Source of the DNA: an uncultured Altererythrobacter sp.
GTDB lineage: Bacteria; Pseudomonadota; Alphaproteobacteria; Sphingomonadales; Sphingomonadaceae
Length of the DNA: 64,000 nt
Reading direction: 5' to 3'
Assembly (NCBI GenBank): GCA_946886565.1
Contig: CAMPIX010000001.1
Span: forward strand, 62,001-126,000
Of the stretch, positions 26,127 to 55,328 are shown piece after piece. The notes under the pieces were generated by a model, which did no database searches, was not told the origin of the DNA, and saw only the letters and a program-made list of their open reading frames with translations. Within the stretch, counting starts at the first letter, position 1. Every line of letters starts with the position of its first letter. A program made the translations under genes and the position numbers.

Positions 26127-26179
26127 CGCACGTTCCTGTTCGGCTTCCTTCCATCCGAAATGGCGCGCGCTGCCCTCCA

Positions 26180-26262
26180 AGAAAACCGGTGCCGCCAAAG
26201 CCCGCGGAAATGCTGAACTTTTGCTCTGACCGGCACCGGTCCAGCGTCGGCGGTGCCGCCGG
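26180..26262. other. Inverted-repeat cluster upstream of the relaxase gene, candidate oriT
   Basis: Within 80 bp there are a near-palindrome GACCGG-CA-CCGGTC (26228-26241) and a larger inverted repeat, CGGCACCG (26231-26238) with CGGTGCCG (26251-26258). A further ACCGGTGCCG copy sits at 26185-26194. Origins of transfer usually lie beside the relaxase gene and carry such repeats. The nick site cannot be read directly. Confidence 0.35.
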
Positions 26263-27126: not shown

Positions 27127-27777
27127 TCACTGGCCTGAAAGCGGGACGAACAAACCGCCGTCCGAGCGCTCCGGCGAGGCCGCGTTCGGACGCCTTCCGG
27201 CTGTCCGATCGACGACGAACAGCGTCTCGGGAGGTGCCGGTGAGGCCGGACCCGCGCCGATCGCATCCGTCTTCGCCACGGCCGCGAGATAGCCGCGCGT
27301 CTCGGCCGGCAATGTCGCCCGGCCCGCCAGATAGGCCGCATAGCGCGCCGGTCCGGCATTGTAGGCGGCGAACAGGCCCGGATAGCCGAAGCGGTCGTAC
27401 ATCGCGCGCAGATAGGCGGTCCCGGCGAGGATGTTGTCGCGCGGATCGTGCGGATCGGCGCCGAGCGCGTGCGCCGAGCGCATCTCCGCCCAGGTGCCGG
27501 GCATCAGTTGCATCAGCCCCATCGCGCCGGCGTGACTGGTGATCGGGCGTCCGGCGAGCATCGTGCGGCCGCCGCTTTCGGCGCGCATCACCCGCTCGAT
27601 CCAGGCTACCGGAACCCCGAAGCGCATCGACGCCTCGGCGACATAAGGCGCCCATCGCGCCACCGGATCGGCGCGCGCGGATGCCGGCGGCGCCACCAGG
27701 CTCGCGGCCGCTGCGACCAGAACCACGAAGCCGATGCGCGATGCCGCCCACCCGCGCCAATGCCTCGTCGGCGTCAC
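27127..27777 (-). CDS. Lytic transglycosylase, conjugation-type
   Basis: 216 residues from a GTG at 27777 that overlaps the traF-like stop as GTGA; longer in-frame extensions lie inside traF. A signal peptide is followed by an SLT domain: catalytic Glu in IERVMRAESGGR, the GAMGLMQLMPGTW block, and FAAYNAGPARY. It cleaves peptidoglycan locally for assembly of a transfer apparatus. A transglycosylase in this position also occurs in the rdfS-rlxS segment of related ICEs. Confidence 0.88.
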   Translation of the reverse strand: MTPTRHWRGWAASRIGFVVLVAAAASLVAPPASARADPVARWAPYVAEASMRFGVPVAWIERVMRAESGGRTMLAGRPITSHAGAMGLMQLMPGTWAEMRSAHALGADPHDPRDNILAGTAYLRAMYDRFGYPGLFAAYNAGPARYAAYLAGRATLPAETRGYLAAVAKTDAIGAGPASPAPPETLFVVDRTAGRRPNAASPERSDGGLFVPLSGQ

Positions 27778-28355
27778 GACGCCGGCCACAGCAGGCGCGC
27801 GCGGCCGAGCACATCTTGCGCGCCGGTCGGCCCGAAGTAGCGCCCGTCGAACGAATCGGCGGCGTCCGCCATCAGCAGGAACAGTTCGCCAGCGCGAAGC
27901 GTCACGCATCCTTCCCACCAGGGCAGGACGCGGCCGTGCCCGTCGAACCGGCGGCGTTCGGCGATGGGGCTGCCGTTGATGCTGACCACCGGGCCGATCG
28001 CGCAGACCGTATCGCCCGACGCGGCGGCGACGCGCTTCACCAGCGGCACATTGGCGGGAAGATAGCGGCGCCGGGCGGCGAGCATTCGCGCGCCGTCCGG
28101 AACCCAGGCGATGACCATATCGCCGCTGCGAACCGGCGCGTCGGGCGTCACCCGGTAGAGCCCGAGCGGCGCGCTGGCGCTCGCATTCCAGACAAGGCGG
28201 GGAACCGGCATGGCGGCGATCGTCACCAGCAGCGGAACCGAAGCGACGGCTGCGACGATGATGGTCGCGCGGGCTCGCGCACGGGTGCGGAGCGTTCGCT
28301 GGCGACTGAGCGCGTCGCCCCAGGCGAACAGCGGCAAGTCGCGGCGCTCAGTCAT
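27774..28355 (-). CDS. traF: TraF-type S26 signal peptidase
   Basis: 193 residues. One N-terminal membrane helix (IIVAAVASVPLLVTIAA) is followed by an S26 peptidase fold: the catalytic Ser in NASASAPLGLYRV and the catalytic Lys in VPLVKRVAAASGD. Conjugative TraF processes pilin or other transfer proteins. It overlaps the upstream HTH gene by 8 nt and the downstream transglycosylase by 4 nt. Confidence 0.88.
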   Translation of the reverse strand: MTERRDLPLFAWGDALSRQRTLRTRARARATIIVAAVASVPLLVTIAAMPVPRLVWNASASAPLGLYRVTPDAPVRSGDMVIAWVPDGARMLAARRRYLPANVPLVKRVAAASGDTVCAIGPVVSINGSPIAERRRFDGHGRVLPWWEGCVTLRAGELFLLMADAADSFDGRYFGPTGAQDVLGRARLLWPAS

Positions 28356-28572
28356 GCCGGCCGCCTCTGGCGCGAGCGGTCGACCAGGCTTCGATGTCGT
28401 CGATATGGTAGCGCCAGGTGCGGCCGTGGAGGCGGCACAAGGGTCCGGTGCCGCGCGCGCGCATCTCCTTCAATGCGGTGAGCGAGAGGCCGAGGTGGAA
28501 GGCGGCCTGCTTGGCGGTGAGGAAGGGGCAGGTTTCGCGCGCCGCCTGCGCGCGCTTGGCGGTGTCGTCCAT
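28348..28572 (-). CDS. AlpA/Xis-like HTH protein, possible recombination directionality factor (RdfS-like)
   Basis: 74 residues from the ATG at 28572; an in-frame ATG at 28632 is an alternative. It has a single winged HTH of the HTH_17/excisionase type (CPFLTAKQAAFHLGLSLTAL) and a wing ending HGRTWRYHIDDIEAW. It overlaps traF. In ICEMlSymR7A the small excisionase RdfS is encoded at the start of the operon that runs through traF and a transglycosylase gene to the relaxase; the order here is the same. Excision activity itself is an inference. Confidence 0.7.
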   Translation of the reverse strand: MDDTAKRAQAARETCPFLTAKQAAFHLGLSLTALKEMRARGTGPLCRLHGRTWRYHIDDIEAWSTARARGGRHD

Positions 28573-28752
28573 GAATCTGTGTCCGGCTGGCGGCCACGGG
28601 ATTGCGCCGCTCGGGACGGGTCTGGCGACCATGGGCCGGCTCGGGCAGGGTCGAAAAACGGCCCCCCCGGAAATCGACCCCCTTCCCCCGGGGCCGAGAA
28701 CCTTCGCCGTTCGGCTCCCGCGCCGGGGGGAGGCGCGGGAGCCGGTTCGCGA

Positions 28753-38379: not shown

Positions 38380-38389
38380 GAGACGATCA

Positions 38390-39528: not shown

Positions 39529-40137
39529 TCACCGGCGGCCGCGCATCAGCGTGCGCCAGCCGCCGCTTGCCAACCGCCGCGATTCGCGCGCCAAGCGCCG
39601 GACGCGCGACCGCAGCGAGTCGGCGCGGTCGTTCGCTTCGGCAACGCTGCCAAACAGGACATCGGCGATTTCGCGCTGGCTAGCACCGGCGGCGAGCGCG
39701 TCATGGACGCGAAGCGCGAGCAGGTGGCGCGTCATCCGGACGTCGGGAGCGATCAGCGTCCGCAGGAACCGGCGGTGGCGCACCAGCTCGATCAGCCGGC
39801 GCAGCGGTAGCAGCTTGGGCTCGGCATCGGCGAGCCCGGCGAGGCGATAGTGGAGGGTTACGGGCACACCGGCTAGCAGGCTACCGACTTCGATATCGAT
39901 ACGGATATGCTGCCAGCCGTCGGAGAGCACAATGTGCTCGACACCGTCGTCATCGACCGCCGCCGACAGCCAGGGCGCCAGCCGCCCCGAGTCAATCGTG
40001 TTCGGACCCGATTCCGTAGCGGCGACGGCGACCGCAGCGATCGCGCTCGGATCGAGATCGGCATGCCAGATGATCCGGGCATCCGGGGCCGCGAGACCCG
40101 GATCCTCGGCGAAAGTGGAGCCCCCACCGGCGCGCAT
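39529..40137 (-). CDS. DUF2285 protein, C-terminal part of an FseA-like excision activator
   Basis: 202 residues if started at the ATG at 40137, but the real product is probably made by a +1 shift from the DUF6499 frame at 40111-40114. From AEDPGLAAPDARIIWHADLDP on it is a DUF2285 protein: VPVTLHYRLAGL, PLRRLIELVRHRRF, then a C-terminal HTH (ALAAGASQREIADVLFG). In Mesorhizobium ICEMlSymR7A the DUF2285 part of FseA is joined to its upstream ORF by programmed frameshifting and activates the excisionase gene. The same ORF order is seen here beside luxR-luxI. Confidence 0.8.
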   Translation of the reverse strand: MRAGGGSTFAEDPGLAAPDARIIWHADLDPSAIAAVAVAATESGPNTIDSGRLAPWLSAAVDDDGVEHIVLSDGWQHIRIDIEVGSLLAGVPVTLHYRLAGLADAEPKLLPLRRLIELVRHRRFLRTLIAPDVRMTRHLLALRVHDALAAGASQREIADVLFGSVAEANDRADSLRSRVRRLARESRRLASGGWRTLMRGRR

Positions 40138-40324
40138 CGGCGCGCCTCAGCGGTCCTGCGCCCTGCGTTGCCGCGCTCGCGCGGACCTGCCACGCCACAT
40201 ACGCCTCGTCGCGGCGGAGCCACTCCCACATCAGGCCGGCGCGGTCGATCGCGCGAAGCCGGCGATAATTCTGTTCGTCGCGCCAATCGCTGACGCCGCC
40301 GCGCCCCATCAGCCGCTGCCACAC
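39992..40324 (-). CDS. DUF6499 ORF, N-terminal part of an FseA-like activator
   Basis: 110 residues from a GTG at 40324 (an ATG at 40309 is possible). The DUF6499 signature is DWRDEQNYRRLRAIDRAGLMWEWLRRDEAY, given here as two blocks around RAIDRAG. Homologous full-length proteins continue ...RWGLHF-AEDPG; here the frame leaves homology exactly after RWGLHF, and the +1 frame supplies AEDPG. Without the shift a short protein with a non-conserved tail would be made, as with Msi172 of ICEMlSymR7A. It is divergent from luxR. Confidence 0.75.
   Translation of the reverse strand: MWQRLMGRGGVSDWRDEQNYRRLRAIDRAGLMWEWLRRDEAYVAWQVRASAATQGAGPLRRADARRWGLHFRRGSGSRGPGCPDHLACRSRSERDRCGRRRRYGIGSEHD
40111..40114 (-). 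other. Probable +1 programmed frameshift site (UUU-C)
   Basis: In the DUF6499 frame the codons are CAC UUU CGC. Slipping of tRNA-Phe from UUU to the overlapping UUC gives CAC U-UUC GCC GAG GAU, which restores the full DUF2285 homology. Alternatively an extra T from mutation or sequencing error. Confidence 0.65.
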
Positions 40325-40503
40325 GCGGTGGAGCGATAACGGATCAAACGGGCTGTGGCGCTGAATCGGAAGCTGTAATATGGGTGTTGCGATGCAGTCG
40401 CGTGTCGACGGCGTGAGGCCCCGACGGTGCGCTCAACCAAAGAAAGGCCGATCGCGGGACTTCGGGCGACTTGAGGCGTCGCCCGTGATCGAGACGACGC
40501 CCA
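40325..40503. other. Divergent intergenic region with alternative hairpins before luxR
   Basis: Near the luxR start, GGGCGAC (40462-40468) pairs with GTCGCCC (40476-40482). A competing longer repeat, CGATCGCGGG (40447-40456) with CCCGTGATCG (40480-40489, one mismatch), would exclude it. This may be an attenuator or a regulator site for luxR. Promoters for both divergent genes must lie here. Confidence 0.35.
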
Positions 40504-41253
40504 ATGGGCATGTTGGCGAGAGCCGAAGCCTTCTGCCGCGCGATCGATGAGACCGAAACGTCCGACGACCTGCACAGCGCGATCACCGAGATCACGGCCG
40601 AACTCGGGTTCGACTATTTCGCGCTGACCCATCATGTCGATGCCGAGCGGCCACCCGGCGCGGCGATGCGGCTGCACAATTATCCCGACAACTGGGTCGA
40701 CTATTTCGACGACAACCGGCTCGCAGTTTCCGATCCGGTTCATCGCGCGAGCCATGTGACCAGCGTCGGTTTCACCTGGCGCGAGCTGCCGCGCCTGATC
40801 GCGATGACGCCTTCCGACCGGCTGATCCTGGCGCTCGCGCGCGAGGAGGGTTTGGGCGACGGCTTCACGGTGCCGGCGCATGTGCCGGGCGAAGCGCGCG
40901 GATCGTGCTCGTTTGCGTGCCCGACCGGCCAGCCGCTGCCGATGCGGATTCTTCCGCTCGCGCAGCTTGCGGGCGCGTTCGCGTTCGAGGGCGCGCGGCG
41001 GATGTGGCGGTCGAAAGCGCTGGGGCCGATGCCGCACCCGATCATCACCGACCGGCAGCGCGACTGCCTGATCTGGGCGGCGCGCGGCAAGTCCGACTGG
41101 GAGATCAGCCGGATCATCGGCATCAGTCCGGAAACGGTCGTGCGCCATATCAAGCAGGCGCGCGAGCGCTACGGGGTGGAAAAACGAACATCGCTCATCG
41201 TCCGGGCCTTGTTCGACGGAACGATCAGCTTCACCGATATCTTCCGCCGCTGA
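40504..41253 (+). CDS. LuxR-family autoinducer-binding regulator
   Basis: 249 residues. The autoinducer-binding domain has the conserved Trp/Tyr/Asp set in NYPDNWVDYFDDNRLAVSDPV and a following W (GFTWRELPRL). The C-terminal LuxR HTH is ITDRQRDCLIWAARGKSDWEISRI and SPETVVRHIKQARERYGV. It should bind an acyl-homoserine lactone made by the adjacent LuxI and act at the palindrome between the two genes. Its position next to the FseA-like gene resembles TraR control of ICE excision. Confidence 0.9.
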   Translation: MGMLARAEAFCRAIDETETSDDLHSAITEITAELGFDYFALTHHVDAERPPGAAMRLHNYPDNWVDYFDDNRLAVSDPVHRASHVTSVGFTWRELPRLIAMTPSDRLILALAREEGLGDGFTVPAHVPGEARGSCSFACPTGQPLPMRILPLAQLAGAFAFEGARRMWRSKALGPMPHPIITDRQRDCLIWAARGKSDWEISRIIGISPETVVRHIKQARERYGVEKRTSLIVRALFDGTISFTDIFRR

Positions 41254-41275
41254 TATGCCCATTTCTGGGCATATC
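41252..41275. promoter_or_regulatory. lux-box-like palindrome upstream of luxI
   Basis: Perfect 10-bp arms GATATGCCCA (41252-41261) and TGGGCATATC (41266-41275) flank TTTC. It overlaps the luxR stop codon and ends 60 bp before the luxI start, the usual place for LuxR activation. Confidence 0.75.
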
Positions 41276-41334
41276 GCTCCCGCGCATACCGTCCGATCCT
41301 TCGCGCGCAATCGACGCGATCGGAGGTTCGGAAC

Positions 41335-41955
41335 ATGCTTCACCTATTCGAAGATGGCGGGGATCCCGCCGCGGACGCGGTGCTCGCCGCGATGTTCGAG
41401 GCGCGAAAGCGCGTGTTCGTCGATCTGCTCGGCTGGGATGTGCCGGTGCTCGCCGGCCGCTTCGAGGTCGACCAGTTCGACGATCCCCACGCCCGCTATC
41501 TGGTGCTGACCGACTCCAACGGCCGGCATCTCGGATCGGCGCGACTGCTCGACACGACGCGCCCGCACATCCTCGGCGAGCTCTATCCCGAGCTGTGCGA
41601 AGACGAGGTGCCGAGCGGTCCCGGCATCGCCGAGATCACGCGCTTCTGCCTCGATCGCCGCCTGCGCGCGCGCGAACGGCTCATGGTGCGCAATCAGCTG
41701 GTGAGCGCGCTGGTCGATCATGCACTCGCCGCAGGCATCCAGCGCTACACCGGGGTCGCCGAGATGGGCTGGCTGCAGCAGATATTGAGCTTCGGCTGGA
41801 TCTGCCGCCCGCTCGGCCTCCCGCAAACCATCGACGGCACGCTGCTCGGCGCGCTCGCCATAGAGATCGGCCCCGACACGCCGTCGCTGCTTGCGCGTGC
41901 CGGCATCTATCAGCCGGTCGCGACCGTGATCGGAGAGCGCCGCCATGCTGCCTGA
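41335..41955 (+). CDS. LuxI-family acyl-homoserine lactone synthase
   Basis: 206 residues from the ATG at 41335 with GGAGG upstream. Conserved LuxI residues are seen as ARKRVFVDLLGWDVP (Arg, Phe, Trp), FEVDQFDDPHARYLVL (Asp, Asp), GSARLLDT and EITRFCLDRRL (Glu, Arg). It makes the signal for the upstream LuxR. Its end overlaps the dioxygenase start by 11 nt, tying signal synthesis to the following genes. Confidence 0.9.
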   Translation: MLHLFEDGGDPAADAVLAAMFEARKRVFVDLLGWDVPVLAGRFEVDQFDDPHARYLVLTDSNGRHLGSARLLDTTRPHILGELYPELCEDEVPSGPGIAEITRFCLDRRLRARERLMVRNQLVSALVDHALAAGIQRYTGVAEMGWLQQILSFGWICRPLGLPQTIDGTLLGALAIEIGPDTPSLLARAGIYQPVATVIGERRHAA

Positions 41956-42847
41956 ACCGATCGAGAGAACAGCCGCCGCTCCGGTTTCGGATGCGATCGA
42001 TCGCTATGCCGATCTGCTCGGCGAACAGGGCTGGTGCATCATTCACGATGCCATGCCGGTCGAGACCGTGGCCGCACTCGAAGCCGATTTCGCCCAGGCG
42101 TTCGACGAGACGCCCTTTTGCGAGGGCGGCTTTTACGGCCGCCGGACCAAGCGGTTCGGGCGACTGCTCGCACGCTCACCGCTCGCTGCCTCGTTCGTCC
42201 AGCACAAGACGATCCTCGGCGTCACCGAACGGATGCTGTCGCCGTGGTGCGATACGATCCAGCTCAACCTGACCCAGGCGATCGCGCTTCATCCCGGCGC
42301 GTTGCCGCAGTTGCCGCACCGCGACCAGGACATGTGGCGCGGCGAGATCGGCCGTACCGAATATCTGGTCAACGTGATGTGGCCGTTCACCGATTATATG
42401 GCGGATAACGGCGCGACGTTGATCTGGCCCGGCAGTCATGGCGCGCGCGCGCTCGATCCCGAGCCGAAGAGCGATCCGATCGTCGCCGCGATGCCGCCCG
42501 GCGCCGCGCTTGTGTTCCTGGGTTCGACCCTGCACGGCGCGGGCGGAAACGAGACCGCCGCAGTGCGCCGCGGGATGATCGTCAGCTACTGCCTCGGATG
42601 GCTCAAGCCCTACGAGAACCAGTGGCTCGCCTATCCGCCGCCGGTCGCGCGCGGGTTCGCGCCCGAGCTGGCGGCGCTGGTCGGCTACCGCCAGCACCGC
42701 CCCAATCTTGGCAATTACGAAGGCCGGTGCCCGTCAATCCTGCTTGGCGACGGGGACGAGGGTCCGCTCGGCGCGGTCGATGCACTGCGACCCGATCAGG
42801 CCGAGTTGGTCAAAGCCTTCGTCGACCGGCAGCGGCGGGAGGGATGA
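41945..42847 (+). CDS. Phytanoyl-CoA dioxygenase (PhyH) family protein
   Basis: 300 residues. Fe(II)/2-oxoglutarate oxygenase of the PhyH type. The facial triad is PHRDQDMW (His125, Asp127) and the distal His197 in STLHGAGGN; a following Arg (AAVRRGMIVSY) would bind 2-oxoglutarate. It overlaps luxI at its start and the GntR gene at its end, and it reads toward the lasso genes. The substrate is unknown. It could hydroxylate the lasso peptide, an acyl chain related to the signal, or something unrelated. Confidence 0.85.
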   Translation: MLPEPIERTAAAPVSDAIDRYADLLGEQGWCIIHDAMPVETVAALEADFAQAFDETPFCEGGFYGRRTKRFGRLLARSPLAASFVQHKTILGVTERMLSPWCDTIQLNLTQAIALHPGALPQLPHRDQDMWRGEIGRTEYLVNVMWPFTDYMADNGATLIWPGSHGARALDPEPKSDPIVAAMPPGAALVFLGSTLHGAGGNETAAVRRGMIVSYCLGWLKPYENQWLAYPPPVARGFAPELAALVGYRQHRPNLGNYEGRCPSILLGDGDEGPLGAVDALRPDQAELVKAFVDRQRREG

Positions 42848-43479
42848 ATTCGGGTCCGACCTCGGAGCGCGTCTATGGCGCGCTCAGGGAACGGATCCTG
42901 GCCAACGTCTTCGCCCCTGGCGCGCGACTCGATCCTGCGGTCCTGGCGAGCGAACTGGCGAGCAGCGTGACGCCCGTGCGCGATGCGCTGCATCTTCTTG
43001 CTGGCGAGCAGCTGGTCGAGGTCCGCCCCGGCGACGGCTTTCATCTCCCGCACCTCACCGGACCCGGCCTCGAGGACCTCTACGCGCTCAATGCCGAGAT
43101 GCTGCTCCTCGCCTTGCGTCGGCGCCTGTCGTCCGCAGCCGATCTCGCTTCGCCTCCGGACGTGGAGCAAAGCGACCTCGCGTCCTGGACCGCCATCCTC
43201 TTCGGATGGCTGGCCCGGCACTCGGTCAATGCCGAGCACGGCTATGTCGTGCGGGCGATGAACGACCGCCTCCACGCGGTTCGGACTGTCGAACCGAATG
43301 TCCTGCCGGGCATTCAAGATGAGCTGGAAGCGATCACAGACGCGACCGGCAGCACTGCCGCGCTTCGAAAGGAAATCGCGGCCTACCATCGGCGGCGGCG
43401 CCGCCAGGCCTTCGAAATCGTGCGCGCCTTCTACCGGTACGACCGGCCGTCAAATAATGACGATATAGAATCCGTATAA
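42844..43479 (+). CDS. GntR-family transcriptional regulator (FCD-like)
   Basis: 211 residues from the ATG overlapping the dioxygenase stop as ATGA. GntR winged HTH: SERVYGALRERILANVFAPG, LASELASSVTPVRDALHLL and GDGFHLPHL. The all-helical C-terminal domain is short and FadR/FCD-like but without an obvious full metal site. It ends 72 bp before the lasso precursor and an inverted repeat overlaps its stop, so it may regulate the lasso genes. Confidence 0.85.
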   Translation: MNSGPTSERVYGALRERILANVFAPGARLDPAVLASELASSVTPVRDALHLLAGEQLVEVRPGDGFHLPHLTGPGLEDLYALNAEMLLLALRRRLSSAADLASPPDVEQSDLASWTAILFGWLARHSVNAEHGYVVRAMNDRLHAVRTVEPNVLPGIQDELEAITDATGSTAALRKEIAAYHRRRRRQAFEIVRAFYRYDRPSNNDDIESV

Positions 43480-43551: not shown

Positions 43552-43671
43552 ATGGAACGCGAAGACACCGTAATCGAGCTCGGCGCGGCAAGCGTCGAGA
43601 CGCAAGGCGGCGGTCCGCTGATCGGCGACGAGGCGCTCGGCCTCGTCCCCTTTGGTCTGACCGACGACTGA
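43552..43671 (+). CDS. Lasso peptide precursor, sphingonodin-I-like
   Basis: 39 residues from the ATG at 43552, with AAAGGAG 6 nt before it. The leader (18 residues) ends ELGAASVETQ, with the obligatory Thr at -2, matching the LGxASxET pattern of astexin-type leaders. The 21-residue core begins GGGPLIGD and ends FGLTDD. Gly1 and Asp8 would form an 8-residue macrolactam; Glu9 is the alternative. From memory, sphingonodin I has the same length, Asp8, and an FGLSDD end. Bulky Leu, Val and Phe residues in the tail could act as plugs. Confidence 0.88.
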   Translation: MEREDTVIELGAASVETQGGGPLIGDEALGLVPFGLTDD

Positions 43672-43726: not shown

Positions 43727-44392
43727 ATGGCATTTGCGCTCGCTCCCGGGATCACCTTCTGCGACGCTGGGGGACGCTTCGTCTTCCTTGACGTGCCCAA
43801 AGATCGTTACTTCTGTCTTGGCGCTGACCCGGAGGAAGGTTTCCGTCGCTTTGTCGCTGGCGCGCCCCTTGCCGAAGCGGACGAAGCGCGATTGAGGACG
43901 CTCGCCGTCCAGGGCTTGCTCGTGCCTGCACCGGCGGATGTTCGACCCGAGCCTTGTCGTCCTCCCGCGTCCATCCGGATGCCATTGTTTCAGGAAAATC
44001 TGCCTGTTTCGAGGCGCAGGGTTCTTGCCGCCGCGGCATCGCTGATCCGCGCGAGGATCATGCTTCGATATCGATCGCTTCACAGCCAGATTACGTCGAT
44101 CCAAGCGATGAAGGACGGCAGTCGCGGCGTGAATCAAGCGGCCGACGAGCGCCTCGTCGAGATTTCCGTCGCCTTCCGGCGCGCGGCATTGATCACCGGC
44201 TCGCTCAACCAATGTCTGGCGAACTCAATTGCCATCGTTCGTCACGCGCGATCGGCTGATCTGCGCGCGGAACTGGTGCTTGGGGTCAAGCTCCGCCCGT
44301 TTCGAGCGCATGCCTGGGTGCTAGCGAATGATGTACTGATCAGCGACGCGGCAGACACGGTGTCGCCGTTTACGCCGATCCTCGTCGTCTGA
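43727..44392 (+). CDS. Lasso peptide B protein: leader-binding domain fused to transglutaminase-like protease
   Basis: 221 residues. The first 75 form a PqqD-like RRE (B1) that binds the leader (FVFLDVPKDRYFCLGADPEEG). The C-terminal part is the B2 cysteine protease: Cys163 in SLNQCLANSIA, His195 in RPFRAHAWVLA and Asp207 in NDVLISDAAD. It removes the leader so that the cyclase can close the ring. The B1-B2 fusion is the usual form in proteobacterial lasso clusters. Its stop overlaps the C gene as TGATG. Confidence 0.9.
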   Translation: MAFALAPGITFCDAGGRFVFLDVPKDRYFCLGADPEEGFRRFVAGAPLAEADEARLRTLAVQGLLVPAPADVRPEPCRPPASIRMPLFQENLPVSRRRVLAAAASLIRARIMLRYRSLHSQITSIQAMKDGSRGVNQAADERLVEISVAFRRAALITGSLNQCLANSIAIVRHARSADLRAELVLGVKLRPFRAHAWVLANDVLISDAADTVSPFTPILVV

Positions 44393-46146
44393 TGGAAAGG
44401 CGCTACATCATCATCCTGCCAGCGCGAACAGAGAGTGAGCGATATTGGCAATCCCGCATCGCTGATCTTGCGCCATATCCCTCAGCCCTTCGCAGCATCG
44501 TCAATTCTCCCCGTCTGATCGTCCTTTCATCGGCAGACGCCTATCGCTTGGCCGGTGCGGAAGGCGTCATCCTAGGAGAGCTCATTCGCAAGGGCGGCCG
44601 TGCACCGATCCCGACGCTCGATACTGCCGAGACTGAATTGATCGCGCGCTTCGGAGCGGAAAGGCTGATCACCGGCTATTGGGGCGCCTATCTCGCAGTG
44701 ATTGTATGCCAAGACGAAGTGACCGTACTTCGCGCGCCGCTCGGTGACCTTCCCGCTTATGTCTGGCATTCGCCGCACGGAATGGTGATCGGATCTGACG
44801 TAGCGCTGATAAGCGCGATCGGCGGTTTCGTGCCGAGCATCGATTGGACCGCCGTTGCCGAGCATCTGGTTGCACCCGATCTCAGGCGCGCCCGCACGTG
44901 CCTTGCTGATCTCGAGGAACTCGCGGGAGGCGCCGCCGGCACATGGCGCAATGATCGGTGGGCAGTACGTCATCTTTGGTCGCCATGGCAGTTTGTGTCT
45001 CCCGACCCCGACGCAGTCGATCCGATCGCATCGCCCGAGCAAGTCGCGCAGGCAGTTCGCCAGTCGATCGCTGCCCGGACGGCTCGGCTCGAACGCTTGA
45101 TCTTGTTGCTGTCGGGCGGCCTCGACTCCTCGATCGTCGCCGCCTGCTTGGCGGATGCCGGCAGGGAGACGAACGCGCTTACCATGGTGACGCGCGACCG
45201 CGGCGGCGACGAGCGCGCCTATGCGAGAGCCATCGCTTCCCACCTGGCAATTCCGCTGACGGAGGTGACCCGTGCGGTGACCGATGTCGATATATATCGG
45301 TCGGCAGCGGCAGGATTGCCGCGGCCGTCCGAACACAGCTTCGCTCAGGCGACGAGCCGCGCCGCCGAGCTGCTATCTAACCGAACAGGCGCACAGGCAA
45401 TCGTTCACGGCGGCGGCGGCGACAACGTCTTTTGTTCGGTGCAATCCGCGGCACCAGTGGCCGATCGGTTGTTGACCGCCGGACCCGACCGCCGGTTCCG
45501 AGAGATTGCGGCCGATTTGGCCACGCTATCGCAGACGAGCATCCCTCATGTTATTCAGGCGGCAGTGCGAAGAGCCTTCCGCCGGCGCCAGCATTACCGT
45601 TTTCCCGCGGATCGCTCGCTGCTTTCCCGTGAGGCGATTGCAGCCGCCCGTAATGCTTGCGAGCACCCATGGCTGGATTCGCCACGGCGGGCACTTCCGG
45701 GCTCGGCAAGCCATATTGGCCTCGTGGCTGCGGCGCAGAGCCTTGTCGAAAGCCCCGATCCGCGACCGTCGCTTGCCCGCGTTGCGCCATTGGTCACGCA
45801 ACCGGTCATCGAGACTTGCGTCGCGATACCGAGCTGGAACTGGTATCTGAACGGCTGCAATCGCGCTGTTGCCCGTCAAGGCTTTCAGCGGTCGCTGCCC
45901 GCTGAGATCGCCTGGCGGCGATCGAAAGGGGCGATGGACAGCTTTGTCATCGAGATCATGGATGCGAACCGCCGTCGTTTGAACGCGATGCTCGGCGACG
46001 GGTTGCTGGTGGCGCACGGCCTGCTCGACAGGGATGCTGTGCGCGGTGTCCTCGCTGACGGGATATCGACGAGCGCTCAAGATTGCGGGCGAGTGATGCT
46101 CTTTGCCGATGTGGAAGCGTGGCTGCGCTCCTGGTCGGATAATTGA
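44392..46146 (+). CDS. Lasso peptide macrolactam synthetase (asparagine synthetase-like C protein)
   Basis: 584 residues. Asparagine synthetase B fold: an N-terminal glutaminase-like domain without a catalytic N-terminal Cys, and a C-terminal ATP pyrophosphatase domain with the P-loop LLSGGLDSS (about 241-247). It adenylates the Asp8 (or Glu9) side chain of the core and joins it to Gly1. It is translationally coupled to the B gene. Its last 70 nt overlap the convergent isopeptidase gene. Confidence 0.92.
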   Translation: MERRYIIILPARTESERYWQSRIADLAPYPSALRSIVNSPRLIVLSSADAYRLAGAEGVILGELIRKGGRAPIPTLDTAETELIARFGAERLITGYWGAYLAVIVCQDEVTVLRAPLGDLPAYVWHSPHGMVIGSDVALISAIGGFVPSIDWTAVAEHLVAPDLRRARTCLADLEELAGGAAGTWRNDRWAVRHLWSPWQFVSPDPDAVDPIASPEQVAQAVRQSIAARTARLERLILLLSGGLDSSIVAACLADAGRETNALTMVTRDRGGDERAYARAIASHLAIPLTEVTRAVTDVDIYRSAAAGLPRPSEHSFAQATSRAAELLSNRTGAQAIVHGGGGDNVFCSVQSAAPVADRLLTAGPDRRFREIAADLATLSQTSIPHVIQAAVRRAFRRRQHYRFPADRSLLSREAIAAARNACEHPWLDSPRRALPGSASHIGLVAAAQSLVESPDPRPSLARVAPLVTQPVIETCVAIPSWNWYLNGCNRAVARQGFQRSLPAEIAWRRSKGAMDSFVIEIMDANRRRLNAMLGDGLLVAHGLLDRDAVRGVLADGISTSAQDCGRVMLFADVEAWLRSWSDN

Positions 46147-48260
46147 TGAAGCTGTCGCCGCGCTCCCTGTCCCAACGCCCGCCAGCGTCGATATTGCGCG
46201 GCCTTTGCCGGTGCCGGATCGGTCTTGCCGTTGAGCCAGAAGTCGAACCAGTCGAGGCTGGTTTCGAACACCGCCGCGCGGTGGACCGGCTGCCATTTGA
46301 TGTGGAACTCGTCGGGGAAGACCCGAACCTCGACCGGCTGCCGATGTTGGCGCAGCGCCGTGACGCTTGGAAGTGCGTAGAGGCTTTCGCTGTCGGCGAG
46401 TTGCATGAGGAGCGGCGTGTCGATCTTGCTCGCATTGAGGACGAACGACACAGGCTGCCAGAATGCCTCATCCACAGGGAATGCGGGAGGATAGCCGACC
46501 GACTGACTATAGCGTTCCCACGCCGGACCGACGAGCACTGCGCTCGATTCATCGATACAGCAGCTGCTGATAGCCGCCGCGGCGAACAGGTCGGCGTTGA
46601 TCAGCGCGAAGCGCGCCGAAGTCGCGCCATCGCTGAGCCCGGTGATACCGAGCCGCGTCGGATCAGCAATGCCGCGGGCGACGAGCAGTTCGACCCCGGC
46701 TTCGATCGCCGAATGCATGTTGCGGCGTTCCGACCAGTCCTCAATATTGGCGGCCTCGATATCCCGATAGCTATCGAGATCGGGTCTGCGTGCGCCGAAA
46801 AAGTCCGGTCGTTCGATGCTCAGGACCGCGAAGCCGCGCTGGGCGAAGAGGTAGATCGGGTACTCGTTGCCCGTCCCGCCGTGGAGAAACCCGCGCGATC
46901 GATAGAGGACGACGATGGTCGGAAGCGGCACGCCCGGCTGGAAGTCGGGCGGGAGCACCAGATCGCCATAAACCTCAAAGCCGTTGGCGTTGCGCCATGT
47001 GACGCGCTCGACCGATCCTAACCGGATCGAGGCGAAAGCCGGGTTGGGCTCGAAATGGGTGGCGATCCTCCCGCGGCCTGGATCGATCGACACGATGTGC
47101 GCGGGTTTCGCCGCCGTTTCTCGGATGCAGAGCAGCCTGTAGTCAATCGGGGTACATCGTTCGAGCTGCGCATCGGTTCGCAGCACGCGCTCGGGCGCAC
47201 CCCGACCGGGCGACCAACGATAGAGCGCCGTGTAGCGCTCGTTCCAGCCTTCACGCTTGAGAAACACAAGGTGGTGCCCATCACGAAGCCACCACAAGCC
47301 GACGAAGTGACCCGTGCAGGCCGACCAGGTGCAGGCTTGGGACTGGCCCGCCCGGTCAATCACATGAAGTCGCTTCGGCCCGAGCGGCGACGATCCGCTC
47401 AACATGGTCCAAGCCTTGGCAGCGCGGAGCGTTGCTGCTTGAGCCGTCGCGCCGAGCGATGCCGATGCGATCCATTTCGCTTCGCCCGCACTCGCCGCCT
47501 GCACTTGGCCGGATTTCAAGTCGATCGTCTTATAGAGTACCGGCAGCGCCGCCTTTGCGTTCGGCCGAAACCCGGTGTTCGGGGTGACCCGCTCGTCATA
47601 GAGCCAGCCGCTCGAACCTTCCGCCGTGATGGCATCTTCGACGTGGTTGCGGTCGGGCTGTATCCCAAAGCCGATGCGACCGCCGCCGGGCATCCAACGC
47701 CACGCGAGGATGTCCGCTTTCTCGTCGGTGAGCGGCCGCGCCCGACCGCCTGCCGCCGCCACCGTCCACAGTCGGGTCACGCCGTCCTCCCGCCGCAGGT
47801 AGGCGATCAATCGCCCGTCCGGCGACCAGGCTGGGACGGTCTGCTGGGGCAATCCATTGGGAATGGAGAGCCCGCGCATCACTACCTCGCTCATGATGAA
47901 ATCTCCGCCCTGGTCCAGAACGCGCGGCGGGCTGGCCCCATCGAGATCGATGCGGAGCAGTGCCTGGCAATAACGGTTTGCCGCGAGATCAGCGCGCTGA
48001 ACGACGAATGCGATCCGTCTCCCGTCGGGAGAAACCGAGATCGGGCTCGGCCCACCCATGGCTGGGGCTGGAGCTCTTCCGATCCCGGTGAGTTCAATCA
48101 AGTCGGCCGCGCTGAGCGAACGCGCTTCGCCCGGGGCGCCGCCGAGCGGATCCCAATGATTGCACGCTGCATGCGCCGGCGGCGCGATCAGGGCCGCCAG
48201 CGGGACCATCACCCACCAGCGCCGACGCGCGAGATGAGGCGCGCAGCTGCAGATCACCAT
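46077..48260 (-). CDS. Lasso peptide isopeptidase (Atxe2-like S9 hydrolase)
   Basis: 727 residues. A signal peptide (ending PPAHA) precedes a beta-propeller-like half with WSPDGR- and SPDGRR-type repeats, then a prolyl-oligopeptidase-type alpha/beta hydrolase. The nucleophile is Ser543 in ITGLSDGATSARF and the His is in VFPDEFHIKWQP. Atxe2 from the astexin cluster opens the isopeptide bond of its own lasso peptide. Here it is convergent with the biosynthetic genes and coupled to the TonB receptor gene by a short overlap. Confidence 0.9.
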   Translation of the reverse strand: MVICSCAPHLARRRWWVMVPLAALIAPPAHAACNHWDPLGGAPGEARSLSAADLIELTGIGRAPAPAMGGPSPISVSPDGRRIAFVVQRADLAANRYCQALLRIDLDGASPPRVLDQGGDFIMSEVVMRGLSIPNGLPQQTVPAWSPDGRLIAYLRREDGVTRLWTVAAAGGRARPLTDEKADILAWRWMPGGGRIGFGIQPDRNHVEDAITAEGSSGWLYDERVTPNTGFRPNAKAALPVLYKTIDLKSGQVQAASAGEAKWIASASLGATAQAATLRAAKAWTMLSGSSPLGPKRLHVIDRAGQSQACTWSACTGHFVGLWWLRDGHHLVFLKREGWNERYTALYRWSPGRGAPERVLRTDAQLERCTPIDYRLLCIRETAAKPAHIVSIDPGRGRIATHFEPNPAFASIRLGSVERVTWRNANGFEVYGDLVLPPDFQPGVPLPTIVVLYRSRGFLHGGTGNEYPIYLFAQRGFAVLSIERPDFFGARRPDLDSYRDIEAANIEDWSERRNMHSAIEAGVELLVARGIADPTRLGITGLSDGATSARFALINADLFAAAAISSCCIDESSAVLVGPAWERYSQSVGYPPAFPVDEAFWQPVSFVLNASKIDTPLLMQLADSESLYALPSVTALRQHRQPVEVRVFPDEFHIKWQPVHRAAVFETSLDWFDFWLNGKTDPAPAKAAQYRRWRALGQGARRQLHQLSDQERSHASTSAKSITRPQS

Positions 48261-50845
48261 GACTTGGCGATCCCGAAGCTGATAACGCGGCCGAGTGGCG
48301 AGTAATTGGTCGAATCATAAGGGGCATGGGTCACCGAGGTGGTGAAAATCGGAGGCGGTTCCGCGTTGAACGCGTTCGTGACCGCGAAAAGCAGGTCAAG
48401 GCCCTGAAGGCCGCGTGGCGCGGTGTCGCCGGTTCGGTAGCGGACCGTGAAATCGAACCGCCATTGGCTCGGTAAGATCGCGGCGGGTGAGACGCGCGGG
48501 TCGGCCAGTTCGCCGCTATAATTCGCGACGCCGGTCACCGCGAGACCATCGAGGCTCCACGTCGCACTGGCCCGCCCACGCCAGCGCGGCGGGTTGAAGA
48601 GGATGCCGGCGAGCGATTGATCGGCCTGGTCTTCGCTGATCTGCTGATGACTGACCAGATAGCTGGCATTGCCGCTGACCCTGATCTCGCCGTCGCCGGC
48701 GCCCAATGCCTGACGATACGAGGCAAGCAGATCAATGCCATGCGCCCATTGGCGGCCGGCGTTGACATTGCTGTTGTCGATGAACGCGATCACATTCGCG
48801 GGGTCGAACGGTGCGCCGGTGCCATTTTGAAAAAACACCCCGCTCGACAGGATGCTGTCGATCAGTTCGCGAGATGGCGATCGCGTCACTTGCGCTGCGT
48901 AGGTGGGATCGCTGAGCGACTGCGAGAGGAAGCCGATCGGGGTGACGATGCGATCGACGTAGCGGATGTCGAAATAGCTGATCTCCGCTTCGAAGCCGGG
49001 CATCACAGATGGTTGGAGGGCGGCCGTTACCGACCATGTCGTTGCCCGTTCGGGCCGTAAATCCGGATTGCCGCCCTGAATATAAAGCGCCGTCGATCCT
49101 GGTGGCGCATCGGTTTGCCCGAACGACGGCGCGCCGAGCAGGGTGAGGATCGGCGGCTGAAAGCGCTGATACAGCGTCGGTGCCCGAAAGGCGCGGCCCC
49201 AGCTCGCTTTCAAGTCGACGCCGGGGGTAGGCGTGTAGACGATCCCGAACTTGGGCGTCGCGACCGACCCGGCATCATCATAATGCTCGTAACGCACGGC
49301 CGCGCTCACATTGAGACGGTGCACGGCAGGGATAGCCATGTGGGGGGCGGCAAGCGGTACGCTGAGTTCGCCATAGGCGTAGCGGTTTGCCTGCGAACGC
49401 TCGAAGTTCAACGGGTGTCCGGCACCCCTGTCGTTTGCGAAGCGAATGTCGCGGTAGCCGATGCCAAACGCGACTTCCGCGCTTCCCGCCGGCAAAGTGA
49501 GGAGAGGGCCATCCGCAGCAAGCTCAACCGATTGAGCGCCATTGTCGTAGAAGCCCGCGGCAAGGCGCCTTGCTTGGTCGTCGGTATAACCATCGATGCT
49601 GTAGTCGACGCGGTCCTCGGCATAGCTGCCCGAAAACGCCGCATTCCAGCCGGCACCGACCTGAACCGATAGACTTGGAGCAATGGCAAAGGCGCGAGAC
49701 TGGGTGATTTGCTGATTGCGGCCGAGCGCAAGATCACCGGCGGGATTGGTCGCGTATCCAGTCGTGGTCCGGCGCTTGTTGAACAGCGCATCGACCGAAA
49801 AAGTGACCGGCTCGCTGATCTGCTGATGGGCACTCAGCAGTGCATTATGATTGCGCATGGCAGGATAGAGCGTGAGACCCGGCGAGCGTAGCCTGGCATA
49901 CTCGCGATCGCCCGCATCGACGGCGGTGTTCCGATTATGCTCATAGGCGGCGATGAACCCGCCGCTCGCCCAACGCGCGCCACCGGCCGCGCTATACTGC
50001 TGCTCGAAATTGCCGCCTTCGGTCGAGGTGCCGAGCCGGGCGCGGGTCTCGACGCCTTCCATGTCGCGCTTGAGGATGATGTTCGCGACGCCGCCGACGG
50101 CGTCGGAGCCGTAAATTGCCGACGCGCCGTCGGCAACGATCTCGATTCGGTCCAGCGCGCCCAGGGGAATGGTCGACACTTCCACGCTCTGGCGGGAGCT
50201 GCTATACGAGAGTCGCCTGCCGTTGAGCAGCGTAAGGGTGGCGTCGCTTCCAAGACCGCGCAGGTTGAGCGACGAACCGCCGCCCATGTCGACGCCATTG
50301 AGCGCGGGGACATTGGACCCAATACCTGGATTCTGTCCGCCAGCGAAGCTCTGCGGGATACTCCGAACCACCCCGCCGAGCGTTGTCTGACCGGCATTCC
50401 GAATATCATTCTCGTCGATGGTAATCACTGGGGACGCGATCGGTGCTCCGCGGATTCGTGATCCGGTGACGATGATCGCAGTGGCGTCATCTCCGCTCGA
50501 CCAATTCTCTTGTGTGAAGTCAGCATCACGCTCCACCACAAGAGCGCGCTGAACTCGGCGATACCGTAGTCCGGATTTTTCAAGCAGCGCCGCGACGGCC
50601 TCCTCGGCGGTAAACTCGCCGATGAGTTGAGGCGCGGTGATTCCCCTCACTAGTTCAGCGGGGGCCGCGATACTGCGTTTGGAAGCGACGGCCACCGCTT
50701 GCAGAGACGTTGACAATGGTTGCGCCGGCAAATTGTAGTGGCGCCTATCGGTTTCCTGTGCCGCCACGGCGATTGGGCACAGAGCCGAAGTCAGACAAAG
50801 TGTCGAAAATGAAGCGGCCATAGCCGCACTGCGAAGAATTCCCAT
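48254..50845 (-). CDS. TonB-dependent receptor with STN domain, lasso-associated
   Basis: 863 residues. A signal peptide (ending VAAQ) is followed by an STN signalling domain (YNLPAQPLSTSLQAVAVAS), a plug (SLNLRGLGSDATLTLLNGRR; ADGASAIYGSDAVGGVANII) and a 22-strand-type barrel ending RVISFGIAKSW. The STN domain signals to FecR when ligand binds. In astexin-type clusters this receptor is thought to import the lasso peptide for the isopeptidase. It is followed in genome order by fecR and sigma genes. Confidence 0.92.
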   Translation of the reverse strand: MGILRSAAMAASFSTLCLTSALCPIAVAAQETDRRHYNLPAQPLSTSLQAVAVASKRSIAAPAELVRGITAPQLIGEFTAEEAVAALLEKSGLRYRRVQRALVVERDADFTQENWSSGDDATAIIVTGSRIRGAPIASPVITIDENDIRNAGQTTLGGVVRSIPQSFAGGQNPGIGSNVPALNGVDMGGGSSLNLRGLGSDATLTLLNGRRLSYSSSRQSVEVSTIPLGALDRIEIVADGASAIYGSDAVGGVANIILKRDMEGVETRARLGTSTEGGNFEQQYSAAGGARWASGGFIAAYEHNRNTAVDAGDREYARLRSPGLTLYPAMRNHNALLSAHQQISEPVTFSVDALFNKRRTTTGYATNPAGDLALGRNQQITQSRAFAIAPSLSVQVGAGWNAAFSGSYAEDRVDYSIDGYTDDQARRLAAGFYDNGAQSVELAADGPLLTLPAGSAEVAFGIGYRDIRFANDRGAGHPLNFERSQANRYAYGELSVPLAAPHMAIPAVHRLNVSAAVRYEHYDDAGSVATPKFGIVYTPTPGVDLKASWGRAFRAPTLYQRFQPPILTLLGAPSFGQTDAPPGSTALYIQGGNPDLRPERATTWSVTAALQPSVMPGFEAEISYFDIRYVDRIVTPIGFLSQSLSDPTYAAQVTRSPSRELIDSILSSGVFFQNGTGAPFDPANVIAFIDNSNVNAGRQWAHGIDLLASYRQALGAGDGEIRVSGNASYLVSHQQISEDQADQSLAGILFNPPRWRGRASATWSLDGLAVTGVANYSGELADPRVSPAAILPSQWRFDFTVRYRTGDTAPRGLQGLDLLFAVTNAFNAEPPPIFTTSVTHAPYDSTNYSPLGRVISFGIAKSW

Positions 50846-50924
50846 TCAAGCCTCCCCGGCGATGCTCTGGCGCGGCATCGCTTGGGGGGCTTGGACAACC
50901 GGGGTGCGCTCTACCCTGAAACTT

Positions 50925-51929
50925 TTACGTCGAAGGTTCTCGGCGCTTGGCGAGAATGATGTTGCCGGCGGGATCGCGAGAATGCGAAAGGCCGAACATG
51001 GCAGCGATCATCTGGGCGAGCTCATCGGAATCGCCGGCCCGAACCGTGCCGGTAAACCGTAACTGCCCGAGTCCGGGCTGCGCGAGCAGAATACGAATGG
51101 AACTGTAGCGGTTGGCGGTCTCGACGACCTCGCGCAGCGGCGTGTCCTCGAACGACAGCATGCCCGAAGGCCAACGCTCTTGGGCGGGTTGGAAGGGCGA
51201 CGGCTGAGGAGCGGGCTCGTGCGGCGCAAGCGTCACGCGCTGTCCGGCCGCCAAAAGGGTTCCTCTTGCACTGGACGACTGCTTCGCGGTGGGCGTGTCG
51301 CGAATCTCAACCTCCCCTTCCAGCAGCGACACGGTCACACGGTCGCCAATCAGACTGACATCGAACAAGGTGCCATGGGCGACGACAGATCGACCGCGCG
51401 CATCCACGATGAACGGCCGATCCGCCTCATGCGCGACAGCGAAGCGGGCACGCCCCCGCTCGAGTGACATCCGACGCGCGTCGTCCGTGAAGGCTATCCG
51501 GAGGGAACTGCCGCTGTCGAGCGTGACTTGCGACCCGTCGGCGAGAGCGACCGTACGAATTTCACCTGCCCGTGCGACGACCGTGTAGGATCCCGAACGC
51601 TCGTCCGGCCCGAACTGCCGGTAAAAGGTAAGAGATGCCACGACGACGAGGATGATCGCAGCGGCGGCTGCGAGCGCGTAACCATATCGGGAGCGAGGAC
51701 GCTGCCGATGCCGCATCGCCGCCGCCGGGGTCTGCTCGGCGAGGGCAGTCTTCTCCCAAGTAGCGAGCACGTCGTCATAGATGTCGGCATGCAGCGGCTC
51801 GGCAGAATACCAGCGCTCGAATTCAGCATGATGCTCCTCGCTGCCTGAAGAGCGGAGGCGATTTAGCCATCCGAGTGCTTCCTCGCGCACGCGGTCAGTC
51901 TCGCGGGCGCCTCGGTGAGGATCAGACAT
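50925..51929 (-). CDS. FecR-family anti-sigma regulator
   Basis: 334 residues from the ATG at 51929, which overlaps the sigma stop as TGATG. A cytoplasmic N-terminus (EEALGWLNRLRSSGSEEHHAEFERW) with the DUF4880-type pattern, one membrane helix (YALAAAAAIILVVVASLTFY) and a periplasmic FecR domain (GEIRTVALADGSQVTLDSGS) are present. It relays the receptor signal to the ECF sigma factor. An STN-like C-terminal end (LSFEDTPLREVVETANRYSS) is also visible. Confidence 0.9.
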   Translation of the reverse strand: MSDPHRGARETDRVREEALGWLNRLRSSGSEEHHAEFERWYSAEPLHADIYDDVLATWEKTALAEQTPAAAMRHRQRPRSRYGYALAAAAAIILVVVASLTFYRQFGPDERSGSYTVVARAGEIRTVALADGSQVTLDSGSSLRIAFTDDARRMSLERGRARFAVAHEADRPFIVDARGRSVVAHGTLFDVSLIGDRVTVSLLEGEVEIRDTPTAKQSSSARGTLLAAGQRVTLAPHEPAPQPSPFQPAQERWPSGMLSFEDTPLREVVETANRYSSIRILLAQPGLGQLRFTGTVRAGDSDELAQMIAAMFGLSHSRDPAGNIILAKRREPST

Positions 51930-52555
51930 CAGCGCGTTCTCAGTGCGCGGTCGAGAAATGCGATCGCCTTGCTCATGTGCCACTCGACGCTCTTTAACCG
52001 CAAACCCGTTCGATTGGCGATTTCCTTGTAACTGAGACCGTCGACACGATGGGCGAGGAAGATTTCGCGCGTTTTCGGGCTCAGCCGCATCAGCGCTTGC
52101 TGCAGCCGGTTCAGAGTATCACGCGCCTCGAGAGCGGCAACCGTATCGCTGCCCGCGAGCGGGACATCGTCAATCGGCACTTGCCGCGCCAGCGATCGCT
52201 GCAACGCGGACTTGGCGCGATTGCGCAGCAGGTTGGCCGCGATCTGATTGAGATAGGCTTCGGGTTGCTCGATCGGTTTGGAACTCATCAAGTCGGCTTT
52301 GGCGAGGCGGGCGAAGCTTTCCTGCACCAGATCGTTTGCATCTTGGCTGTCGCTCCTTCGGGCAAAAAAACGATGAAGCCTCGATGCCTGCGCCCGGTAT
52401 AGATCGTCGAGCGCCACCGTAGTGGGCCGATCCTCGGGAGGCAGCGGATCGTCATCGCGGATCGGCGCTGCAAAGGATGCGGTGCGGATCAAACGCACGG
52501 CATGGCCAAGGGCGGCGTCATCCACCTCAAAGACTTTCGTTGCTGGGTACGCCAT
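51929..52555 (-). CDS. ECF sigma factor of the lasso uptake system (FecI-like)
   Basis: 208 residues. Region 2: DDLYRAQASRLHRFFARRSDSQDANDLVQESFARL, quoted here by its DANDLVQESF core, followed by EAYLNQIAANLLRNRAKS. Region 4: LSPKTREIFLAHRVDGLSYKEI. With FecR and the STN receptor it forms a complete trans-envelope signalling chain. It likely drives the receptor and isopeptidase genes in response to lasso peptide or a related ligand. Confidence 0.9.
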   Translation of the reverse strand: MAYPATKVFEVDDAALGHAVRLIRTASFAAPIRDDDPLPPEDRPTTVALDDLYRAQASRLHRFFARRSDSQDANDLVQESFARLAKADLMSSKPIEQPEAYLNQIAANLLRNRAKSALQRSLARQVPIDDVPLAGSDTVAALEARDTLNRLQQALMRLSPKTREIFLAHRVDGLSYKEIANRTGLRLKSVEWHMSKAIAFLDRALRTR

Positions 52556-55325: not shown

Positions 55326-55328
55326 TGG

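Follow-up and report, generated by a model that had tools for sequence, protein, structure and literature searches.

The window analysed here is the whole stretch of 64 000 nucleotides from an uncultured Altererythrobacter sp.; other loci and genomes are cited by our own numbers (L and G). Two overlapping open reading frames (ORFs) on its reverse strand form a split fseA gene with the following features:

40324-39992, reverse strand: zero-frame ORF of fseA, 110 aa, DUF6499 (PF20109, E 2.6e-16), the part before the slip being 40324-40112
40137-39529, reverse strand: +1-frame ORF of fseA, 202 aa, DUF2285 (PF10074, E 5.5e-14), used after the slip from 40110
40111..40114, reverse strand: slip site UUU-C (TTT at 40114-40112, C at 40111), with UUU in 95/95 distinct split homologues
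40121..40126, reverse strand: UGGGGG, Shine-Dalgarno-like, 6 nt 5' of UUU, proposed as stimulator in view of GGG enrichment

The window sequence and its ORF table show the second ORF overlapping the first in the +1 frame, at CAC UUU CGC. When TTTC is taken as one step, the +1 reading gives ...RWGLHF/AEDPGLAAPDARIIW, a product of 264 aa with both domains. The fseA homology begins at about D14, so that ATG 40309 and GTG 40324 are equally likely starts. At the level of sequence, the pair is confirmed as a split gene of the FseA type, with DUF6499 at the N terminus and DUF2285 at the C terminus of the +1 reading; separate DUF6499 and DUF2285 products may be made besides the joined one. Both the FseA-type +1 split and the full-length product of a slip at UUU-C had been put forward in an earlier, sequence-only reading, and both are supported by sequence, the first by the domain matches and the frames of the homologues, the second by the predicted 264-aa reading and the conserved UUU.

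The fseA sample consisted of 30 PF20109 loci from 100 relatives, 8 loci found by DUF2285 similarity, 15 regions found with the model of R1 (an RNA of the luxR leader, described below) and, from the family, another 60 PF20109 regions (L081-L140), the last representing about every second region among the matches listed, with about 15 passed over. A DUF6499 match was present in 109 loci (118 rows before 9 duplicate loci were merged); in these, DUF2285 lies in the +1 frame relative to DUF6499 in 96, in the same frame in 13 and in the -1 frame in 0; chance is excluded as the source of the +1 arrangement by this conservation of frame. The slip codon was UUU in 95/95 distinct split loci, against a background of 21% among Phe codons of nearby long ORFs, and was followed by C in 90 and by T in 5; UUU-C and UUU-U alike permit UUU to re-pair one base on. 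This count sought a TTT codon first, and a recount was anchored on the W-G-L-x-F motif, which is present in 93/96 distinct loci: TTT was found in 92 and TTC in 1 (taken to be L026, which reads TTC TTT there), that is, UUU in 92/93 versus 175/590 for the remaining Phe codons in these genes. The Gly codon of W-G-L was GGG in 76/95 split loci (background 16.5%) and, in the motif-anchored count, in 75/93 versus 278/1546 for the remaining Gly codons in these genes; the loci being related, Fisher tests of these enrichments, and likewise of the lasso association described below, overstate the certainty.

In the +1 frameshift of prfB (RF2), a G-rich, Shine-Dalgarno-like stretch lies 5' of a pyrimidine-rich slip codon. 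By analogy, UGGGGG is proposed to act as a Shine-Dalgarno-like stimulator of the slip; unlike in prfB, no stop codon stands at the slip, and the spacing to UUU is 6 nt. Substitutions beyond the slip, counted in 8 close pairs that are not independent, numbered 25/11/71 at positions 1/2/3 of the +1-frame codons. Third-position substitutions thus dominate the +1 frame beyond the slip, and it follows that the conserved frame changes at the slip site. The +1 slip at UUU-C is likewise present in most of the 60 other sphingomonad fseA loci. The R1-linked fseA genes carry UUU-C (19/22), UUU-U (2/22) or an in-frame fusion (1/22). UUU-U replaces UUU-C at L067 10332-10335 and at L078 10419-10422. The fused gene is that of L073 (genome G204), where positions 10300-10380 include CTC GCT TTC GCC GAG without UUU-C, and where the Gly codon of W-G-L is altered too (TGG CGG CTC GCT TTC). 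A close relative with an in-frame gene and no UUU-C had been named beforehand as the case that would speak against a programmed slip; it occurs this once, and the other 21/22 keep UUU-C or UUU-U.

Ten natural fusions, each with both domains in one chain, were found among the best 120 database matches to the joined protein. They are 47-59% identical to it and align across the junction without a gap, and in this comparison, too, the sequence-only reading held. In a tree of 108 DUF2285 domains, the 13 fused genes are scattered over several separate places. Of 30 FseA proteins labelled as belonging to the fseA-luxRI arrangement (22 from R1-linked loci together with L034-L036, L038, L039, L133, L137 and L140), 28 fall within one clade of 31 (support 0.86). 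No NCBIfam model covers the joined product, and a PDB sequence search with it gave no match at E ≤ 0.001. Its AlphaFold model has a mean pLDDT of 71 with a poor N-terminal third, most alignment rows being without DUF6499; the only PDB match to the model at E ≤ 0.001 was RovC (6xz5, E 1.6e-4, probability 1.00), with a low TM-score (0.30-0.36), and the structure of QseM (7uqt) ranked 14 with E 1.4.

Two other accounts of the split gene were weighed. A broken fseA, caused by a frameshift mutation or a sequencing error and leaving an element unable to excise, would fit the two separate ORFs and the existence of fused relatives, among them L073 of the same family. It is most improbable against the +1 arrangement in 96/109 loci, the invariant UUU of the split homologues, the mainly third-position substitutions after the slip and the presence of a near-identical element in another genome, G001. 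In this nearest genome found, the junction is identical to that of the window; a sequencing error is very unlikely, as the G001 copy has the same bases and yet G001 differs as a genome. With the identical junction and the frequency of the +1 frame, sequencing error and pseudogene were both rejected. The halves might otherwise serve as separate proteins, DUF2285 alone being a QseM-like antiactivator translated from ATG 40137 and DUF6499 something else. Such a start does precede the DUF2285 part, and the available portion of PMC10359603 describes QseM as a DUF2285-only antiactivator; the +1 frame, however, is open for 12 to 70 codons upstream of the slip in the 12 loci inspected, and the several tree positions of the fused genes also argue for a joined product, which makes separate functions very unlikely.

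The single FseA-type gene read through a slip is divergent from a block of genes with the following features:

40396..40493, forward strand: R1, two-hairpin RNA in the luxR leader with UGAG loops (cmsearch 88.4 bits, the window copy being among the 9 sequences that built the model; covariation)
40504..41253, forward strand: luxR (PF03472 2.3e-29, PF00196 9.1e-11)
41253..41274, forward strand: lux box ATATGCCCATTTCTGGGCATAT, a perfect 22-bp dyad upstream of luxI, conserved between luxR and luxI
41335..41955, forward strand: luxI (PF00765 2.3e-21)
41945..42847, forward strand: PhyH-family dioxygenase (PF05721 2.2e-19)
42598..43479, forward strand: GntR regulator (PF00392 9.8e-14, domain at residues 88-149), true start probably near 42840
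43552..43671, forward strand: lasso peptide precursor, 39 aa, proposed core GGGPLIGDEALGLVPFGLTDD (small ORF, similar leader pattern)
43727..44392, forward strand: lasso B2 protease (NF033537 9.7e-18, over cut-off)
44392..46146, forward strand: lasso macrolactam synthetase (C) (PF00733 1.2e-25; NCBIfam lasso models below cut-offs)
46077..48260, reverse strand: Atxe2-family lasso isopeptidase (NF033523 4.6e-223, over cut-off)
48254..52555, reverse strand: TonB-dependent receptor, FecR and ECF sigma factor (Pfam)

Convergent with fseA lies an Xre-RES toxin-antitoxin pair (38363-39525, forward strand), and a similar pair is found in L037 near DUF736. A small ORF with a similar leader pattern occupies the precursor position in 11/11 loci scanned, and the boundary of the lasso core is a predicted one. 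Precursor, B2, C and Atxe2-type isopeptidase stand together, and by its sequence the window cluster is classed as isopeptidase-type.

The divergence of fseA from luxR-luxI, already pointed out in the sequence-only reading, proved to be a recurring arrangement: the order fseA, then in divergent orientation luxR-luxI-PhyH-GntR-lasso, is repeated among sphingomonad elements whose proteins are only about 25-68% identical. The count rests on 23 R1-positive loci of sufficient length (the window, 8 loci used in model building and 14 found by the model; L033, L044 and L066 are close kin, as are L043 and L047). Of these, 22 carry fseA, and 20 have lasso B or C no more than about 10 kb away; a tally of 22/25 for the lasso genes includes L163 and L183, which had been chosen for their isopeptidase, and becomes 20/23 when they are removed. 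The following loci were excluded from the 23: L079 (3-kb contig), L145-L148 (3-kb loci), L049 (damaged luxR and fseA, no R1), L034 and L035 (contig or region ending near luxI or luxR), and L036, L038 and L039 (no clear R1, lasso genes in all three). The lasso genes near 20/23 R1-bearing loci compare with 3/60 in the other fseA regions, where luxR and luxI were also present in 3/60 each, and where RdfS was found in 53/60, typically no more than about 3 kb from fseA.

Isopeptidase loci over the cut-off numbered 56, in 46/297 genomes; 40 of them were analysed, 8 more were already among the R1-linked regions and 8 were left out. In the 40, luxR, luxI and PhyH occurred together in 12, of which 9 had fseA too, and in 24/40 the 4-18 kb examined contained lasso genes but none of luxR, luxI, PhyH and fseA. 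On the Sphingomonas paeninsulae plasmid NZ_CP032828.1 (L189), the annotation lists a DUF2285 protein, LuxR, an AHL synthase, PhyH and GntR as well as a lasso peptide, B2, synthetase and isopeptidase.

R1 spans about 100 nt in the gap between fseA and luxR and consists of two hairpins with UGAG-type loops and a GGGAAAGGGCG linker common to the copies. In the alignment of 9 sequences, both sides were changed in 11/26 pairs (24 cells). With 30 sequences, an alignment fitted to the model and hence leaning to it, the figure was 23/26 pairs (122 cells), with 0/500 shuffles as high and 22-35 cells for slid partners. The luxR strand folds at -33.3 kcal/mol versus -23.4 kcal/mol for the other strand. 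Taken alone, the window copy folded no better than its shuffles (z 0.27, with 118/200 shuffles folding at least as well), and the case for R1 accordingly rests on covariation, single-sequence folding having given no support. No Rfam family matched R1. The model found one copy each in 16/397 genomes of the family, and 9/297 genomes of the order matched, all of the same family and one with two copies; R2, a version of the R1 model, matched only G001 among 289 genomes of the class. In these searches of family, order and class, run with stricter filters at which weak matches are lost, R1 was found in a single bacterial family only. In the 60 other fseA regions, no R1 was detected at E under 0.1 (best E 0.12); it was absent from 4 plasmid luxRI loci without fseA (L190-L193), and in more distant fseA-luxRI loci, for example L034, L035 and L038, it was weak or missing.

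The element that carries these genes has, in addition, the following features:

24147..26198, reverse strand: RlxS relaxase (NF041267 3.5e-300, over cut-off)
27127-27918, reverse strand: lytic transglycosylase of the backbone block
27774..28355, reverse strand: TraF (TIGR02771 3.6e-26, 91.7 bits, slightly below the cut-off of 100.25)
28348..28632, reverse strand: RdfS (PDB 8dgl RdfS, E 2.1e-16 over residues 21-88; PF12728 3.4e-8), true start probably Met at residue 22
28650..28678, reverse strand: FseA-box-like inverted repeat 5' of rdfS (GTCGAA-N17-ATCGAC, hexamers 17 nt apart)
62018..62031, forward strand: attR, 14-bp copy of the tRNA-Ser 3' end (repeat search, window vs G001)

The block of relaxase, TraF and RdfS, which also holds the lytic transglycosylase, had been noticed in the sequence-only reading for the first three genes; its identity is upheld by the protein models, and its distance from fseA is corrected from 12 to about 11 kb. 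DUF736, ParB and ArdC complete the backbone, and the same backbone is found in relatives. TrbJ-, TrbE-, TrbB- and TraG-like ORFs of a T4SS, read from translations, lie in G001 to the left of the window. The G001 integrase (2285162-2285620) is about 0.9 kb from tRNA-Ser(gct), whose last 14 bases recur at G001 2384384-2384397 and at window 62018-62031; a repeat of 14 bases is weak alone, a second 14-base match having appeared in the same search, but the tRNA-Ser copy lies precisely at the end of the identity shared by window and G001. From the integrase, the tRNA-Ser end and the repeat at the identity border, the integrative and conjugative element (ICE) is taken to be about 100 kb long (G001 2284276-2384397). 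With an integrase at a tRNA gene, a flanking repeat (14 bp only), a relaxase and T4SS genes, it is classed by sequence as an RlxS-type ICE.

Window and G001 are 99.96-99.98% identical over 10031-49938 and near-identical over the stretches compared inside the element (1-7029, 10031-52897 and 61794-62031, window 7030-10030 having been excluded from the comparison); window 52898-61793 differs from the G001 element. To the right of attR, no DNA common to both was detectable in the 1969 bases compared, which identifies G001 as a different genome, and the element has probably moved recently between different hosts. The variable segment 52898-61793 contains BilA-BilD, a ubiquitin-like anti-phage system (53940-56738, reverse strand; PADLOC E 7e-46 to 8e-158), adjoining a UvrD-like helicase with an IrrE-type domain. 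Heavy-metal cargo occupies window 400-30707 and 36411-38263 (multicopper oxidase, CopB, P-type ATPase, RND pump, cation efflux and MerR, together with a disulphide oxidoreductase, possibly MerA). A chrB-a RNA (RF03078, 77 bits) was found at L045 11560-11635 (forward strand), 1 kb from fseA of another such element.

The pattern GTCGNA-N15/16-TNCGAC was present before rdfS with 10/10 bases in 11/69 regions and with 9/10 in 2 (shuffles 0.2 and 1.0), counts to be read with the pattern having been picked from the same regions and with GCTCCT and CCTCCT hexamers equally strong there. These 13 loci (L034, L035, L037, L038, L048, L067, L070, L071, L073, L074, L077, L078 and L133) have luxR near fseA in all but L038, which has lasso genes only. 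Among the R1-linked loci reaching rdfS, the repeat matched at 10/10 bases in 8/10; L037 matched at 9/10, and the window has a spacer of 17 nt, which lies outside the 15 or 16 bp between the two inverted hexamers of the FseA box, as given in the part of PMC10359603 at hand. Scores were weaker in L036 (8/10), L039 (8/10) and L138 (6/10). In 34 sources, the pattern gave 33 matches versus a shuffled mean of 9, with 13 of them before rdfS; scattered matches occur in other fseA regions too, and single matches away from rdfS therefore carry no meaning.

Of the 27 luxR loci scanned, 26 have a lux box in the luxR-luxI interval (exception L039; weight matrix from 21). In the gap between fseA and luxR, the weight matrix gave no lux box at a score of 11 or more in 30 sources, and a dyad scan of this gap in 12 loci turned up a single dyad, GC-rich and confined to L043. 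Rfam gave a mir-50 match at 41244-41283, which was rejected, as it coincides with the lux-box dyad and scores far under gathering. Because of the conserved lux box before luxI, it is very likely that LuxR drives luxI and the genes after it. L080 (10534-14438) has R1, luxRI, PhyH and lasso genes without fseA, and on its divergent side a second strong lux box stands next to VirB1-, VirB2- and VirB4-like ORFs; quorum sensing in this element may face the transfer genes directly. A search with PF10074 in 5 genomes, which a very divergent QseM could escape, gave no lone QseM-like DUF2285 protein: G001, G384, G360 and G437 had one match each, that of fseA, and G153 had two, the second adjoining another DUF6499 match.

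The closest known system is FseA (Msi172-Msi171) of Mesorhizobium ICEMlSymR7A, for which the accessible text of PMC10359603 describes DUF6499 and DUF2285 in two ORFs, a +1 frameshift and an inverted repeat before rdfS, and that of PMC8627217 the presence of rdfS and rlxS on Mesorhizobium ICEs. The domains, the two ORFs with a +1 slip site and the rdfS and rlxS genes are the same here, and an FseA-box-like repeat stands before rdfS. The repeat (GTCGNA...TNCGAC) is likened to the R7A box by its layout, not by its letters; fseA and luxR diverge, fseA has no lux box facing it, no QseM was found, and a lasso cluster and R1 are present. We know of no lasso-peptide cluster and no structured luxR leader in the ICEMlSymR7A model. 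The proposal of a sphingomonad version of the R7A circuit is retained for RdfS, RlxS and the FseA-box-like repeat but not for a lux box, which stands only before luxI, or for QseM; as to quorum control of fseA, the divergent luxR-luxI pair is there and a lux box directed toward fseA is missing from the scan; LuxR may act on fseA by an indirect route. The 60 other sphingomonad fseA loci mostly share the UUU-C slip but are without R1 and rarely have luxR, luxI or lasso genes. In sphingomonads, luxI followed by phyH and transfer genes is on record (PMC4288048, as far as its text was available); among the plasmid loci compared, luxI is followed by phyH in L190, L191 and L193, the annotation of L192 lists no phyH, and in the stretches seen no fseA or lasso gene is annotated. 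Isopeptidase-type lasso clusters such as those of astexin and benenodin have the same layout from GntR to sigma factor (GntR, precursor, isopeptidase, TonB transporter and sigma/anti-sigma pair in the portion of PMC9266682 consulted); here, luxR-luxI-PhyH and the divergent fseA come before it, inside an ICE.

From the junction, its conservation, the motifs, the gene order and the covariation, we infer a mechanism in which the slip frequency, the binding of FseA and LuxR, the function of R1 and the extent of the operon would be as follows. The majority of ribosomes would translate DUF6499 and then terminate; a minority would slip +1 at UUU-C, aided by UGGGGG, and make the complete DUF6499-DUF2285 protein. 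The joined FseA would bind the inverted repeat before rdfS, and excision would begin. LuxR with its signal would act at the lux box before luxI and drive luxI-PhyH, with GntR and the lasso genes probably included, and the folded leader R1 would control the amount of LuxR. This whole explanation, a split fseA acting as the +1-slip activator of an RlxS-type ICE and joined to a quorum block with an R1 leader, is in our judgement likely.

The luxRI and lasso genes could be cargo that sits beside fseA by happenstance, with no regulatory link to transfer. The empty fseA-luxR gap in the lux-box scan, the lasso clusters that occur alone (24/40 isopeptidase loci) and the 3/23 R1-linked loci without lasso genes within about 10 kb all agree with cargo, whereas the gene order recurring at such low protein identity, the 28/30 FseA proteins of the arrangement in one clade of 31 and L080, in which a lux box and VirB-like ORFs take the place of fseA, argue for a link; cargo is accordingly an appreciable but minority prospect. 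That R1 is a conserved DNA site with dyad symmetry, for example an operator of LuxR or FseA, would suit its position between two divergent genes and the unremarkable folding of the window copy. It is unlikely, since the arms compensate while the loops stay (the 122 both-side cells that no shuffle reached) and the other strand folds worse.

With the joined FseA and the quorum block as the preferred reading, the frameshift itself is not new, for a +1 site of the FseA type has been published as widespread: 4709 homologues throughout proteobacteria, about 61% of them split, in the part of PMC10359603 available. Taken alone, it is one more case among thousands, and the codon-level signature of UGGGGG before UUU-C is a testable hint to how the slip may be stimulated. 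What is new, as far as the literature search reached, is the joining of fseA, luxR and luxI to a lasso cluster, together with the R1 leader. That search, with most subscription journals outside its reach, gave no paper on a fseA-luxRI-lasso block or on a link between lasso peptides, LuxI and ICEs in sphingomonads, and none on a structured luxR leader in this group. The recurring block joins a transfer switch, quorum sensing, a lasso cluster and a covarying RNA without an Rfam match. Speculatively, R1 could be a new cis-regulatory RNA, confined to this family of sphingomonad elements, that sets LuxR synthesis and couples lasso production and transfer at high density; the lasso peptide and the TonB/FecR/sigma/isopeptidase arm might then act between donors and recipients as a signal or weapon that the element carries, with excision still kept behind the slip. 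To our knowledge, the purpose of isopeptidase-type lasso peptides is unclear; if the link is true, these peptides would gain a role in the life of mobile elements.
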